Positions 11,752 through 17,574 of a stretch of 64,000 nucleotides of DNA are shown here, piece by piece. Numbering within the stretch: position 1 is the first letter of the stretch; the number at the start of each line of letters is the position of its first letter. A program made the translations under genes and the position numbers. The notes beneath the pieces were generated by a model that saw only the letters and a list, made by a program, of their open reading frames with translations, was not told the DNA's origin and searched no databases. Source of the stretch: Aciduliprofundum sp. MAR08-339. GTDB taxonomy: Archaea; Thermoplasmatota; Thermoplasmata; Thermoplasmatales; Aciduliprofundaceae. The stretch covers positions 310,001 to 374,000 of the forward strand of contig NC_019942.1 in the NCBI RefSeq assembly GCF_000327505.1, in the 5' to 3' direction.

Positions 11752-12627
11752 CTATAAGTATATTTTTTCTGGATTTGATCCGCTATGGACAATCATGGGA
11801 TAAGAGTAATGCTCATCATAATACTCCCCGTTATTGTGTTCTGCATAGTCTCCTTTCTGGTACATATATGATATTGATTTGGGATCGCCTATATTACCCA
11901 TACTCAATATAAAACCATTATATGTTGGGAAGAACAACTGACCATTTTCATATAACTTTTTCATTCTTCCCTGATAAATAAAGGCAAAATGCTCATAAGG
12001 AGTTTGAAGCCATATGCCAAAGACCTGAAATGCATCCTCTGTCCACGCCTCATGCGTACTATCCGCCGCACTTATCAGTATCCTGTTCTCTCCGGAGAGA
12101 TGCGACTTCATTGTACCGCTGTAGCAGGCTTGATTTACAACGATCAGAACTGCGTACTTCCTATTAGCATTGTTACCAAATGTTGTGTTTATATAATTCC
12201 CAAAGTCAGAATAAGATACACTCTCTCCCTGCCATCCAGGATGGCCCTCTGATGTCTGGGCATCAGCATTGCTTCTTATTCCAAATCCTCCCGGTCCACC
12301 ATGGGTAACAATTGTAATGAACAAAGAATCATGTACTGTGATCTTTGATGCTATATCATCCAGCGCATCTTTAATGTCGTATTTATTGGGAACATCCCAC
12401 ATCGCCTCTCCGTCAACTATGCTCTCCGTGGTTTTATCATGTCCTCTCCAGCCCCAGCTACCATCATATTTGGGATACCACCTTGATGACATAAGATATA
12501 CATTGTCTGGAGAGTAGTGGTAATCGTTCACCAATTTATTGTACATTGCCTTTCCGTCGTTCCAGAAAGCTGGCACACGCGAATACCTATGCACATCATA
12601 CAGAAAATACCAATCCTGGTTCTCCAT
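11752..12627 (-). CDS. C13/caspase-like (clan CD) peptidase domain, second copy
   Basis: The 291-residue product resembles the legumain/caspase fold: putative catalytic His in THGGPGG (~110) and Cys in VNQACYSG (~168), each after a hydrophobic strand (LFITIVTHGG, YAVLIVVNQA), with SGENRILISAAD after the Cys. Such enzymes cut after specific side chains, often outside the cell. The ORF has no signal peptide. Its ATG overlaps the end of the CBM9-like gene by 32 nt in another frame, and removing one G from the G6 run at 12636-12641 would fuse both into a single secreted protein. So this may be the peptidase half of a two-domain product, either broken or switched by the tract. The substrate is unknown. 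Confidence 0.72.
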   Translation of the reverse strand: MENQDWYFLYDVHRYSRVPAFWNDGKAMYNKLVNDYHYSPDNVYLMSSRWYPKYDGSWGWRGHDKTTESIVDGEAMWDVPNKYDIKDALDDIASKITVHDSLFITIVTHGGPGGFGIRSNADAQTSEGHPGWQGESVSYSDFGNYINTTFGNNANRKYAVLIVVNQACYSGTMKSHLSGENRILISAADSTHEAWTEDAFQVFGIWLQTPYEHFAFIYQGRMKKLYENGQLFFPTYNGFILSMGNIGDPKSISYMYQKGDYAEHNNGEYYDEHYSYPMIVHSGSNPEKIYL

Positions 12628-13579
12628 TATTCCATCCCCCCACGGGCACTATATGCCAGTTGAATTGTTGATCTTCCACATAAACAATGTTGAACGGAGA
12701 TATGCCTTTGTAAGAGAAATATGCATTTATATTTAACTTAATCTCAAAAATGTGCGCTTTGGTGGCATTCACATATGAGAATTCAAAATCTCCTTCAACG
12801 GAAGATTCAGGAATTTGATGCATTTCTCTATGGGGTATTGCGTATATGATGTAATTTTCCGTTATGATTCTTAATTCTTCATCTTCAGAATATTCAGCAC
12901 CTCTTATGATGAAAAGTACATAGAGATATTGCTCATCGTACTTTAAAGCGAGAGTGATATTCACTGGGCCATTGGTTATAGGTGCATATGGCCCACCATT
13001 TTTCCAGGATTGATTGTAAATATTTGCGTCGTTCCATTCTTCAGGATCTACTTTTCCGTCAATAACAGGCGCCTTTTTTGCGTGGCTTGCTTTTAACGGT
13101 GATAGTGCTTCCATACTTACGATGTTTGAATCTGTTGTCTCGTATGGAAGTTTTGGATGATATGGATTGTTTGCACTCTTGTATCGGGCAAACAACTCAA
13201 ATTTTCCAGTAGGTAGTTTTAAAATCTTCTTACCATTTTTCACATTCTGGAAAGAATAGAGGTTATCCGTATGCGTCCAGTTTTTCTCGGGTGAGAGAGG
13301 TAATGCAGTGCAGTTGGAAGGGGGCCTGTATAATTCCAAAGTGGTACCATTTGGGTACTGGAGGATGTATGTATATGCCACATTGGGCATAGGAATTGAC
13401 TTGTTTCCTTTGTTGAATATTGTAATGGTAACATTAAAATTTGTCTGATTGACAAGAATGCGTATCTCCAGATCTCTTTTTTCATTGGGAATTTCTGATG
13501 TGGTGATTTCATAGTAGGATAGGACGCCCACCAAAAGAAGAAGAATTACTATACTTATTGCTATCATGCCCTTTTTCAT
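12596..13579 (-). CDS. Signal-anchored protein with CBM9/DOMON-like domain
   Basis: The 327-residue protein starts with an uncleaved or cleaved signal (MKKGMIAISIVILLLLVGVL). A beta-rich section follows (~25-165) and then a region typical of CBM9/DOMON-like domains (APVIDGKVDPEEWNDA at ~180, then alternating strands). Those domains bind sugars or haem at the outer face. The ATG at 13579 was chosen over a GTG at 13588 because GGTGAGGAG lies before it. The frame ends with a short odd tail (NNGEPGLVFSV) just after a G6 run; with five Gs it would read on into the C13-like peptidase. Function is unassigned. Confidence 0.65.
   Translation of the reverse strand: MKKGMIAISIVILLLLVGVLSYYEITTSEIPNEKRDLEIRILVNQTNFNVTITIFNKGNKSIPMPNVAYTYILQYPNGTTLELYRPPSNCTALPLSPEKNWTHTDNLYSFQNVKNGKKILKLPTGKFELFARYKSANNPYHPKLPYETTDSNIVSMEALSPLKASHAKKAPVIDGKVDPEEWNDANIYNQSWKNGGPYAPITNGPVNITLALKYDEQYLYVLFIIRGAEYSEDEELRIITENYIIYAIPHREMHQIPESSVEGDFEFSYVNATKAHIFEIKLNINAYFSYKGISPFNIVYVEDQQFNWHIVPVGGWNNGEPGLVFSV
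12636..12641 (-). repeat. G6 tract at the CBM9-like/peptidase junction
   Basis: On the coding (minus) strand the sequence is GTGGGGGGATGG. With six Gs the CBM9-like frame ends 14 codons later. With five Gs the reading continues GTG GGG GAT GGA ATA ATG GAG into the C13-like domain without a stop. This is either a slip mutation or a phase-variable tract. Confidence 0.6.
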
Positions 13580-13589
13580 TCTCCTCACC

Positions 13590-14186
13590 TCACAGATAGG
13601 TATGGGCAGCTAAGTATCCGTCACTACTCTCTTCATGTGGGTTATATGACTCATCACCGTACCATGAACCAGAATATCCATTATCAGGATTATCTTCTAA
13701 TAGGGCATGCTGGTGAGTGGATAGCTCATTATATGCCCTATACGCCGCATAATAATAAGCTTCCTCAAAAGATACAAACCCATCTCCATTCCCATGAGAG
13801 TCTGTAGTATATGGATCTCCATCGGGGTTTGGTAAATCGCCATATCCTAATAAACCATCTCTAAATAATTCACCCCAACCATTGTCCTCCTCAACGTATT
13901 TAGTGGATGTCAATATTACTCTATTCTCTCTACTTAAATAAGAGATAATTCCTCCACTAAAACAAGGATGGAAAGCCAATACCATTCTCTTTGCCGTTAT
14001 GTTGTCCACAAGTTCCGCTATTTTCTTAAACGAAATAGTTATTGTATTATGGTAATCAATTAAAAAAGAGTGTTCTGGAGGAGAAACACCATGTCCAACC
14101 CAAAACAAGAATAAAAAATCATGAGTAGTCATCTTCCTCGATAGGGTATTGAATGCTGAAGTGATATTATCTAGCGTTGTATTCAT
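13590..14186 (-). CDS. C13/caspase-like peptidase fragment, first copy (C-terminal part)
   Basis: This 198-residue frame holds the active-site half of a clan CD-like peptidase: His in LFLFWVGHGVSPPE (~33) and Cys in MVLAFHPCFSGG (~75), then SRENRVILTSTK, parallel to SGENRILISAAD of the second copy. An Asp/Gly-rich stretch (DSHGNGDGFVSFEEAY, ~127-142) looks like an EF-hand-type calcium loop. In the same frame, upstream of the ATG, the sequence reads YYLGYGDAGREKVD back to a TA-rich tract, beyond which the other frame (14246-15448) supplies the domain's first strand and helix. So it is the 3' part of an interrupted gene. The ATG at 14186 has no clear ribosome site. Confidence 0.62.
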   Translation of the reverse strand: MNTTLDNITSAFNTLSRKMTTHDFLFLFWVGHGVSPPEHSFLIDYHNTITISFKKIAELVDNITAKRMVLAFHPCFSGGIISYLSRENRVILTSTKYVEEDNGWGELFRDGLLGYGDLPNPDGDPYTTDSHGNGDGFVSFEEAYYYAAYRAYNELSTHQHALLEDNPDNGYSGSWYGDESYNPHEESSDGYLAAHTYL

Positions 14187-14222: not shown

Positions 14223-14251
14223 ATAATATATATATTATATATATATTATAT
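14223..14251 (-). repeat. 29-nt TA-rich tract interrupting a peptidase gene
   Basis: An almost pure A/T run, nearly its own reverse complement, lies between codons for KDENI and YLGYGD. It brings an in-frame TAA and, at 29 nt, also shifts the frame. A nine-base version would give DENIYYLGYGD, a natural join for this fold. This suggests expansion of a short AT repeat by about 20 nt. Confidence 0.65.
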
Positions 14252-15448
14252 ATTCTCATCTTTATAACCTATATTAACTAAGTAGTTATAAATACTATCA
14301 CAAAGATTTTGATACCACTTTTTATTTAATTGGGCAGGATCTCCATATATTATAACCGCGTATCTTTTATTGTAGTTCCTTGGCTCTTGCCATCCACCAT
14401 AGTATATTCCATAAACAACTTCATAATAATCACTCATCTCATCCCCATCCGAGTCCCATGCATACGCATAGGTCCCATAGTACCCAATCTCCTGCTTATC
14501 TGTTAGGCCATCATTGTCCGTATCCTCATCCCTCGGATTCGTGCCATGTTCATATTCTTCCTTATCATTCACTCCATCATTGTCCGTATCCACAAAATGA
14601 GGATCTGAAGTGACGAGAATGTGATGCCAATTATCGCCCGAGGTGCATACCCATATGTACCATCCTGCCTCTTCCAGGGAATCTGATAATCCATCTCCAT
14701 CTGTATCGTCATTGCTTCCTCCACCGCCACCATGGTCTATCACAGGCGGGTTGTAATCCATAACCTGTGCATCTCCATAATCCTTCTCATCTCCCACTAT
14801 ATCCATATTCACATCTTCATACACGCTTATCTTCAATTCTCTGAACCTGAACTTGCTCCGCTCCCAGTTCAGCCCGAATAAAATATCTCCATCTCTCCAC
14901 ACCTTCACCATATCCTGCCCATCCTCAAATTTTCTCTCTCCTCGCACAGTGCCATTATAAATCCCCGTTCTACCGTGCCCCTCCCTGTAAGGCACCCTCG
15001 TATAGCCCGTTCCATTATCTATGACCTCAAACCAGTTGCTCCCTATGCCCTCGTATCTCCACACTACCCTGTACTCAACACTCCTGTTGAAATGCAGGGT
15101 GAAAAGTGGATATAAAGGTGCACCTTCCTTAACCACGCTTCTCTGATAATACTCCAGAGTACCGCGAACTTCTATTTTTCCTCTATGCACAAATCCTATA
15201 GAAAGCACATGCCACCCGTTGTGGATGCTGCTCTCCATAAATCTCTTCTCAAATCCCATCTCTCTCCATCCTTTCCCGCTCTTTATCTCCACCACGGGAT
15301 AGACCCTCTCTACCAATGTTCTGTGCGTATGGATCTCTTTTATTACAGCATAATTTCTCTTTATCTTAACCATTATGTCCCCGTTGCTAAACACCTTGCC
15401 CACAAAATACCCATGCATGTCCTCTGAATTCCTTGAGTCTTTACCCAT
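14246..15448 (-). CDS. Secreted protein N-terminal part: beta domain, TSP3 calcium repeats, start of C13 domain
   Basis: This 400-codon frame has a beta-rich N-terminal region (1-235), a GGGGGS linker, then aspartate-rich thrombospondin type 3-like repeats (DTDGDGLSDSLE, DTDNDGVNDKEEYEHGTNPRDED, TDNDGLTDKQE, DSDGDEMSDYYE, ~245-365) which bind calcium outside cells. It ends with the opening of a C13-like domain (KRYAVIIYGDPAQLNKKWYQN) cut by the TA tract. No signal peptide is in this frame; a perfect one is encoded just upstream in another frame (15457-15512). The intact gene would have run 15512-13590, about 630 codons. Confidence 0.65.
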   Translation of the reverse strand: MGKDSRNSEDMHGYFVGKVFSNGDIMVKIKRNYAVIKEIHTHRTLVERVYPVVEIKSGKGWREMGFEKRFMESSIHNGWHVLSIGFVHRGKIEVRGTLEYYQRSVVKEGAPLYPLFTLHFNRSVEYRVVWRYEGIGSNWFEVIDNGTGYTRVPYREGHGRTGIYNGTVRGERKFEDGQDMVKVWRDGDILFGLNWERSKFRFRELKISVYEDVNMDIVGDEKDYGDAQVMDYNPPVIDHGGGGGSNDDTDGDGLSDSLEEAGWYIWVCTSGDNWHHILVTSDPHFVDTDNDGVNDKEEYEHGTNPRDEDTDNDGLTDKQEIGYYGTYAYAWDSDGDEMSDYYEVVYGIYYGGWQEPRNYNKRYAVIIYGDPAQLNKKWYQNLCDSIYNYLVNIGYKDENI

Positions 15449-15512
15449 TACCCCCCACTCCGCTCAGAAGGATGAGCATTACTACACCTGCTATTATTAA
15501 TCCTTTAAACAT
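15449..15512 (-). other. Signal-peptide coding fragment separated from its gene by a G6 tract
   Basis: An ATG at 15512, preceded by GAGGGGAT at good spacing, encodes MFKGLIIAGVVMLILLSGVG, a typical signal peptide, then meets a stop a few codons later. The coding strand has GTGGGGGGTAATGGG (G6 at plus-strand 15451-15456). With five Gs the frame continues GTG GGG GTA ATG GGT AAA GAC into the TSP3 protein. As written, translation from this site gives only a 24-residue peptide. Confidence 0.65.
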
Positions 15513-15544
15513 ATTTATCCCCTCAACCACATGCACCTTATTTG

Positions 15545-15605
15545 TGGTATTTAAATGTTATGTGAAAAATACCAGGATCACATAAAGAGACCTAAAATTA
15601 TTTTA
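15545..15605. promoter_or_regulatory. Divergent promoter region between peptidase island and GGR-type reductase
   Basis: CATTTAAATACC on the minus strand (about 15545-15556) precedes the signal-peptide start at 15512 by ~35-40 nt, leaving room for a short leader with GAGGGGAT. On the plus strand AAAATTATTTTA (15594-15605) lies ~25 nt before the GTG at 15627, as expected for a leaderless message. Confidence 0.45.
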
Positions 15606-15626: not shown

Positions 15627-16757
15627 GTGTACGATGTGATAATCGTTGGAGCAGGGCCCATCGGTCTGTTCATAGGAAAGGAGTTATCCTCCATGGGCTA
15701 CGATACCCTGATTCTTGAGGAGCACAGTGAGATAGGAAATCCGTGCCACTGCTCCGGCCTGTTTTCCTGGCACATATTTGACATGGTTGGCAAGATAGGA
15801 ATCCTGCACGAAGCAAAGTACGCCACCATCCACGCTCCGGATGGAAGTACCCTGAGCATCGGAGATGGAAGAACCCAGGGATATGTGGTTGACAGGGTTA
15901 AATTTGACAGGGAGATGGCAAAGAGAGCGGTTGAAAAGGGTGCAGAAATTCACCTGAAGGAGAGGGTGCTCCATGTGAATTATCCTGTAGTAAAAACAAG
16001 AAAAAACGAGTACAGGGCAAACATAATTGTTGGGGCGGATGGAATAAACAGCGTGGTTCGTAAAAAAATTGGTGTGAGGTTGCGAAAAATTCTGGGTGCA
16101 GCCCAGGTTATAGCCAGGTATCCTGTTGATAACCTAGAAAAGGTGGATATATACCTTGGTTCAAAGGTGGCACCTGGATTCTTCGCCTGGAAAATTCCAC
16201 TATTTGACAATCTGGTTAAAATAGGCCTCGCAAGTTATGGAAACTCGTGGATGTATTTGAAATCTCTTCTCAAGAGAATGAATGCAAGAGCGTTATCCAT
16301 CTCAGGAGGGGGAATACCCATTGGTACCGTTGAGAGAACATACAGCAAGGGTATGCTCATAGTTGGCGATGCAGCTGGCCATGTGAAGGCAACAAGCGGG
16401 GGTGGAGTGTATCCTGGACTTATGGCGGCCAGATGTGCTGTGAAAATTATTGATAAGGCACTATCCATTGGAGACTACTCATCCTCTATCCTCAGCGAAT
16501 ACGAAAACTGCTGGAAAAAAACCATAGGAAAGGAGTTGAAAAATGCTCTTTACCTCCACAGGATATACAGAAAAATAAGGGATGAGGACTTCAACAGGAT
16601 AATAAAGGATCTGAACGAGCAGAGGATAATTGAGGTGATAAACGAGTACGGAGATATTGATTACCCCTCCCGTGTAGCGACAAGGGTCCTCAGAAGAAAA
16701 CCCTCCTTGCTCAAATACCTCAGTATTCCTGCAAGACCCTATCGTAAACAGATTTGA
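15627..16757 (+). CDS. Geranylgeranyl reductase family FAD-dependent oxidoreductase
   Basis: The 376-residue flavoprotein begins YDVIIVGAGPIGLFIGKEL (Rossmann GxGxxG for FAD), has the Cys-rich NPCHCSGLFS of this family and the second FAD motif VGDAAGHVKATSGGGVYPGL. Relatives reduce the double bonds of isoprenoid chains in archaeal membrane lipids. The frame is open from 15555, but homologues start at YDVIIVG and a TATA box sits ~25 nt before the GTG at 15627. The exact lipid substrate is not settled. It converges with xerA, overlapping by 38 nt. Confidence 0.88.
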   Translation: MYDVIIVGAGPIGLFIGKELSSMGYDTLILEEHSEIGNPCHCSGLFSWHIFDMVGKIGILHEAKYATIHAPDGSTLSIGDGRTQGYVVDRVKFDREMAKRAVEKGAEIHLKERVLHVNYPVVKTRKNEYRANIIVGADGINSVVRKKIGVRLRKILGAAQVIARYPVDNLEKVDIYLGSKVAPGFFAWKIPLFDNLVKIGLASYGNSWMYLKSLLKRMNARALSISGGGIPIGTVERTYSKGMLIVGDAAGHVKATSGGGVYPGLMAARCAVKIIDKALSIGDYSSSILSEYENCWKKTIGKELKNALYLHRIYRKIRDEDFNRIIKDLNEQRIIEVINEYGDIDYPSRVATRVLRRKPSLLKYLSIPARPYRKQI

Positions 16758-17574
16758 GGGTTGCATCGTCCACATGGGTGTAAATCTGCGTGGTGGCCAC
16801 ACTGCTGTGCCCAAGGAACTGCTGTATGAACCTTATGTCCACACCTCTGCGAAGCATTGTGGTTGCAAGTGTGTGGCGAAGAACATGGGGGGTGACTTCC
16901 TTCTTTATACCCGCCTTCTTGGCGTATCTTTTAACAATTCTAAACACCTGGGAGCGGGATATTCTCTCACTCTTACGTGAGGAAAAAAGGTAAACCATAT
17001 CATCATCCCGGGTAAGCAGATAATCCTGAAGAGCTTCAATCACGCGGGAACTAACAACAACAATCCTGTCCTTATCCCCTTTTCCAGAGCGAACGTATAT
17101 TATGCGCTCATCAAAATCCACATCCTCAAATCTCAAATTGCAAAGTTCACTGACCCTGAGCCCGGAATAGGCGAGAAGTGAGATTATGGCGTAATCTCTG
17201 GGATTCTCTCTGGAGGCTTCAATCAACCTCTTTGCTTCCTCCTCCGTCAGATACTTGGGCATCTGCCTTGGCCTCTTTGGAGCGGTGAGTTTGCTGGCCG
17301 TATCCAGATCTCTGTACTTGAAATAGGCCCTTATGGCCTTCACCGCCAGATAGAGGGAGTTCTTGCTGTAATGCCTTCTTGTGGATAGGTACATCTTGTA
17401 CCTGTTCAAATCCCCAAGAGTTATCTCCTCGGTCCTCTTTCCAATATGGAGAAGCATATCGCGCACAAAATGCACGTACTCCTTAACGGTGTTCTCACTC
17501 CTCTTCTCCCCCCTTAAGTACTGGGCAAATTTTTTGACCTCGCTGTCAACATAATTTCTAAATTTGTCAGACAT
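16720..17574 (-). CDS. xerA: Tyrosine recombinase XerA
   Basis: This 284-residue protein has an N-terminal SAM-like DNA-binding domain (1-95) and a catalytic domain with Arg in AYSGLRVSEL, Lys in VRSGKGDKDR, HVLRHT, LGHSS and the nucleophile Tyr in TTQIYTH. Archaeal XerA resolves chromosome dimers at dif. Single copy and lone context fit a housekeeping recombinase rather than an element integrase. GATATTTAAAA (17595-17605) lies ~25 nt before the ATG, so it is leaderless. I see no clear dif site nearby. Confidence 0.92.
   Translation of the reverse strand: MSDKFRNYVDSEVKKFAQYLRGEKRSENTVKEYVHFVRDMLLHIGKRTEEITLGDLNRYKMYLSTRRHYSKNSLYLAVKAIRAYFKYRDLDTASKLTAPKRPRQMPKYLTEEEAKRLIEASRENPRDYAIISLLAYSGLRVSELCNLRFEDVDFDERIIYVRSGKGDKDRIVVVSSRVIEALQDYLLTRDDDMVYLFSSRKSERISRSQVFRIVKRYAKKAGIKKEVTPHVLRHTLATTMLRRGVDIRFIQQFLGHSSVATTQIYTHVDDATLKSVYDRVLQEY

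Follow-up and report, generated by a model that had tools for sequence, protein, structure and literature searches.

The run of six Gs at positions 15451-15456 (minus strand) of the window, by which we mean the whole 64,000-nucleotide stretch of Aciduliprofundum sp. MAR08-339 DNA analysed here, is probably an allele in the OFF state, belonging to a poly-G phase-variation switch kept family-wide at the signal end of a secreted TSP3-C13 protein. At the equivalent place in homologues the G tract varies in length, both ON and OFF frames occur, and the mature part that follows is under purifying selection. Slipped-strand mispairing would add Gs to the tract or remove them; with 3n+2 Gs the signal would continue into the mature protein and the product would be exported, and with any other length translation from the signal would stop shortly past it, leaving no exported protein. 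From these comparisons we infer that the tract slips often and reversibly in living cells, that this slippage arises during replication, and that tract length turns export ON or OFF, OFF meaning no export. For the gene family as a whole, the proposal that slippage would decide the export of the TSP3 protein is strongly supported.

The junction in the window and the protein that follows it

On the minus strand, an ATG at 15512 starts MFKGLIIAGVVMLILLSGVGGNG, a frame of 23 residues (15512-15441) that ends at a TAA stop at 15443-15441 and was called a signal peptide by eye from its Lys, hydrophobic core and small residues. A putative TATA-like promoter block, CATTTAAATACC (15546-15557, minus strand), lies upstream of it and is also found in a second copy elsewhere in the genome. 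The mature ORF (15448-14246, minus strand, 400 aa) follows in a different frame and has no signal of its own; Pfam, AlphaFold2 and fold searches place in it a sugar-enzyme-like N-terminal domain and TSP3 repeats, and it stops short of the C13 catalytic half. The separation of signal and TSP3 ORF by a G6 tract, as described in the initial annotation, is real, and the signal does end at a stop when six Gs are present, after 23 residues rather than the 24 given there. The tract is coding and a one-base change shifts the frame, as at homopolymer (SSR) phase-variable loci: one G less or two Gs more would join the signal to the mature ORF. The five Gs put forward as the joining length do restore the frame, but the length that matches the homologues lacking a tract is eight.

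Taken by itself the length of this run is ordinary, because G6 runs are common in both window and genome: G/C runs of at least six number 17 in the window, and GGGGGG has 139 + 140 matches in the 1.44-Mb genome, overlaps counted. No G run of nine or more occurs in that genome (one contig, 1.437 Mb). Judged against the homologues, it is the position of the tract that is remarkable.

Fold searches place the AlphaFold2 model of the N-terminal domain (mean pLDDT 83.5) among the beta-supersandwich domains known from galactose mutarotases and from glycosidases, with 8x1b as the best VIA row (Z 15.9, rmsd 2.8, 194 aligned) and 3q1n as Foldseek's best (Z 13.9). TSP3_bac (PF18884) is recognised in the mature ORF of the window with 49.3 bits against a cut-off of 25, and Peptidase C13 (PF01650, cut-off 22.8) reaches 61.5 bits in the homologue G003:C39 and 30.3 bits in G014:C34. 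The domain order is N-terminal domain, TSP3 repeats and C13 peptidase domain, one homologue (G013:C167) ending in a clostripain-type domain instead, and the protein would correspond to a putative secreted sugar-binding protease. DNA similarity ends within the TSP3 region both between the window copy and the second genomic copy and between G002 and G003:C39; C-terminal ends therefore seem to have been swapped in this region, with the look of a cassette exchange. Positions 14440-15560, compared with the second copy (L018, G000:C1:413000-420000), have an identical 5' half from promoter to N-terminal domain, and the C-terminal ends differ. A tract-free paralogue of 1034 aa in G003 (L022, G003:C54, 76-3177, minus strand) has the same N-terminal domain, but its C-terminal part is long, of a different kind and lacks a clear match in Pfam.

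The window copy is damaged at a second place. A 29-base AT repeat (14226-14254, minus strand) terminates the mature ORF and disrupts the C13 domain, the second half of which (13590-14186, minus strand; 22.0 bits with Peptidase_C13, below the cut-off of 22.8) is cut off from the first half and lies out of frame with the mature ORF; G003:C39 is a continuous single frame across the same place. A stretch spanning promoter, signal, G6 and N-terminal domain (14636-15560, minus strand) is identical at 925/925 bases to the second copy at G000:C1:416 kb, so that the two copies, G6 included, are not independent. The second copy has an open frame of 461 aa and, in our own reading against G003:C39, no catalytic-residue stretch. 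Both copies in this organism thus have a reduced look, and a tract of only six Gs probably slips slowly; because its tract is short and its peptidase half is lost, the window copy may be a slow or locked OFF allele.

Several other features lie close to this gene. A fragment of another C13 gene (11064-11198, minus strand), with a stop inside, shares 49% identity with the ORF at 11752-12627. The ORF at 12596-13588 (minus strand) overlaps that same C13 ORF in another frame (region 11752-13588), and the same overlapping pair is found in G013, a different genus, where the first protein is 87% identical, a value that suggests a recent transfer. A second G6 at the junction of this pair (12636-12641) was considered as a second switch and rejected, since G013:C19 has the same overlap although the tract is replaced there by GGGAGG. 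A tyrosine recombinase, XerA-like by eye, is encoded near the C13 cluster (16720-17574, minus strand); nothing here ties it to the switch.

Tract length and frame among the homologues

A search for the N-terminal domain in 117 genomes of the order and 400 genomes sampled from the class identified it in 12 of the former and nine of the latter, all within this archaeal family. A scan of genome contigs yielded 13 loci, several of them matching genomes already included here, the relatives being Aciduliprofundum sp. and bins of the DHVE2 group, and viral contigs gave a single weak match to the domain (32% identity). Junctions were read only in homologues whose gene start lies on the contig, so that G019:C12 and G013:C167, which start off the contig, are excluded from the ON/OFF counts; two deletion remnants (G015:C55 and G015:C45) are not counted among the tract copies, and two partial DNA matches (G012:C36 and G022:C52) contain no tract copy. 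In the remnants (L138 and L144, respectively), the signal, or the signal and the start of the domain, is fused to the final codons of a C13 gene.

The initial annotation had proposed comparing the tract in several strains; among relatives its length does vary, from 5 to 11 Gs in the 12 homologues that carry both a tract and a mature part: 6 and 6 in G000 (the genome of the window), 10 in G002, 10 in G003:C39, 9 in G009, 8 and 7 in G013, 8, 6 and 6 in G014, 11 in G015:C41 and 5 in G016. Three of them are in frame (G8, G8 and G11) and nine are out of frame, and together they occupy all three frame classes. In-frame lengths are 3n+2, five Gs thus being in frame too, but with one Gly fewer than G8; in G016 an extra base near the G5 tract makes the in-frame lengths 3n+1. 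The tract-free homologues are all in frame (9/9), a difference from the tract copies that is significant (Fisher p 0.0011; 0.009 with near-identical copies merged). In several of them the same Gly-Gly is encoded by GGAGGA or GGTGGG, and the resulting protein sequence is, for example, VGGVMG or LGGAMG, a reading that the G000 and G002 genes would match at G8.

Tract length varies among close copies with conserved flanks, as it does at SSR loci. Four copies are identical at 60/60 bases upstream, and any two of them differ at 1-5 positions in the 40 bases downstream of the tract, which comprises 8 Gs in G014:C34, 11 in G015:C41, 6 in G014:C130 and 9 in G015:C55. Across the 18 genomes of the family there are five G runs of at least nine, and all five lie at this one site in homologues, four in the tract copies listed above and the fifth in the remnant G015:C55; the tract is thus above background length at this site for the family, whereas the G6 of the window is not. 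In a tree of 17 rows, which omits the second G000 copy and G014:C94 (found later), eight tract copies form one group (support 87/90) and the G000 and G013:C32 copies are placed elsewhere, so that the tree does not establish a single origin for the tract. That one-base changes decide export, as the initial annotation claimed, accordingly fits the gene family, with tracts of 5-11 Gs, ON and OFF states and every long run at this site, and may not hold for the window organism, which has the short G6 in both copies and in which the window copy is broken again.

Selection on the mature part and alternative explanations

Five OFF copies (G002, G003:C39, G013:C68, G014:C130 and G016) retain an open mature frame of 587-669 aa. 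Among 12 dN/dS comparisons, two of which gave no value owing to saturated synonymous sites, G002 against G003:C39, both OFF with G10, has a dS of 0.22 and a dN/dS of 0.25; the G014/G015 copies among themselves give 0.17-0.22, the tract-free pair G020:C3/C14 gives 0.36 and the G016 pairs give 0.12-0.13. Comparisons of G000 with other genomes, where dS was above 2 or gave no value, were not used. These ratios indicate that the mature parts are under purifying selection, even between two out-of-frame copies; selection thus keeps the gene intact across the family, although the copy in the window is broken. Open frames and low dN/dS in OFF copies imply that the genes have been used as proteins, either because the OFF state is a passing one or through leaky reading.

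Such constraint is difficult to reconcile with simple decay, according to which the OFF copies would be pseudogenes and the G run, which spans two adjacent Gly codons, would gather frameshifts once the gene is unneeded. Most OFF copies retain long open mature frames under purifying selection, 0/9 tract-free homologues are out of frame, and decay would not extend a G run to 9-11 at a single site. Decay does occur in the family, as the remnants G015:C55 and G015:C45 show, and it is favoured by the two breaks in the window copy and by further fragments in the C13 cluster of the window; as an account of the OFF copies in general we consider it unlikely. The remnants, the additional break in the window copy and the presence of G6 only, the same in both copies, in the genome of the window also count against a switch, as do the occurrence of MutS in most family genomes and the origin of some tract contigs in low-coverage bins.

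Leaky reading could also take the form of recoding, in which RNA polymerase or the ribosome slips on the G tract and out-of-frame genes constantly give some full protein. This would account for selection on OFF copies without DNA switching, and transcriptional slippage on long G runs is possible. Programmed recoding would, however, hold one frame relation, whereas the tracts fall into all three frame classes; near-identical copies differ in the length of the tract in their DNA, and the tract-free homologues manage without one, which together make recoding quite improbable.

The second start described in the initial annotation exists, as an ATG at 15448-15446 in the window, but a signal-less product from it is doubtful. 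A restart at this codon, just past the tract, would give a cytoplasmic form and make the signal ORF a leader, an arrangement suggested by the GGAG about 9 bases upstream of the ATG and by the signal-frame stop (15443-15441) that comes three bases after it. The ATG is nevertheless absent from the G014, G015 and G016 copies, the signal frame stops farther downstream in G002 and G003:C39, and in many copies the codon is the Met of a VGG(A/V)MG motif at the signal end, part of the cleavage region in ON and tract-free copies. We therefore hold an internal start to be very improbable.

Exact G8 runs, of which the 18 genomes have 30 and this site two, represent background. The other 28 comprise 17 within intact frames, two that break a gene (G003:C24 and G017:C89) and nine that are intergenic or unclear; the two gene-breaking runs give the baseline to be expected from error or from chance mutation. 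They shift the frame of a HAD-like phosphatase (L066) and a decarboxylase-like enzyme (L085), both identified by eye, through error or mutation. Homopolymer sequencing or assembly error, for which these 2/19 coding G8 runs and the low coverage of some bins (JALWEL ~1.7x and JALULR ~1.5x by record titles) would speak, can be given almost no weight for the family, since breaks cluster here (9/12 tract copies against 2/19, p 4.6e-4), the G11 contig has ~35x coverage by its title, and the window genome is a single contig in which G6 is seen twice.

Absent mismatch repair was considered as a cause of tract instability and is not supported, MutS_V being found in 17/18 family genomes; NucS_C was above cut-off in 1/18.

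Comparison with known phase-variable systems

Poly-G switching by slippage is classical in bacteria, and what would be new here is the archaeal host, in which, as far as the literature searched goes, it is hardly described. A search of the open-licence literature found no cellular archaeal poly-G switch, the phrase 'phase variation in archaea' giving no match, and none is named in the available excerpts of PMC3711429 and PMC8416519. A tract survey that includes archaeal genes describes, in its excerpted part, an excess of poly-A/T and a 5' bias, not generally of poly-G/C, and names no archaeal switch there. In vitro slippage is reported for archaeal PolB and PolD (PMC4134008), and a 2025 review (PMC11868660, in excerpt) presents archaea as a group for future extension of the map of phase-variation loci, adding that genomes with many switches seem confined to pathogens, perhaps through database bias.

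Whether the switch extends to a wider system is, in our judgement, evenly balanced: in such slippage-driven archaeal phase variation, Aciduliprofundum and the DHVE2 group would maintain a poly-G tract, up to 11 Gs long, dedicated to switching secretion ON and OFF for a protein built of modules (a sugar-enzyme-like domain, TSP3 repeats and an exchangeable peptidase end), with the 5' cassette copied between copies of the gene and with switching and C-terminal exchange acting jointly, comparable to surface variation in bacterial pathogens, in free-living vent archaea. A poly-G switch in free-living archaea, if real, would mean that such bet-hedging needs no animal host, and would suggest that selection comes from viruses, rivals or neighbours.

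The nearest likeness is with Neisseria, where the pilC tract is located in the signal-peptide region. Phase variation of pilC1 involves a change from G10 to G9, and, as far as the excerpted source describes it, the two cases share a coding tract (G9/G10 in pilC1) in the gene of a surface protein, turned ON and OFF by one-base slips (PMC5231331); pilC1, unrelated in sequence, encodes a bacterial pilus-tip protein whose switching was seen directly in isolates, whereas here it is the homologues that point to switching. A similar likeness exists with the poly-G/C contingency loci of Helicobacter, Campylobacter and Neisseria, in which hypermutable G tracts switch surface-related genes (PMC2831843, PMC4965091 and PMC5953494), although those bacteria have many loci per genome, as opposed to one gene family in an archaeal host. 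Finally, the tail-fibre of the haloarchaeal virus phiCh1 provides, according to the excerpted report, phase variation in an archaeal setting; that system is viral and recombinase-driven, whereas slippage in a cellular gene is proposed here (PMC4284463).
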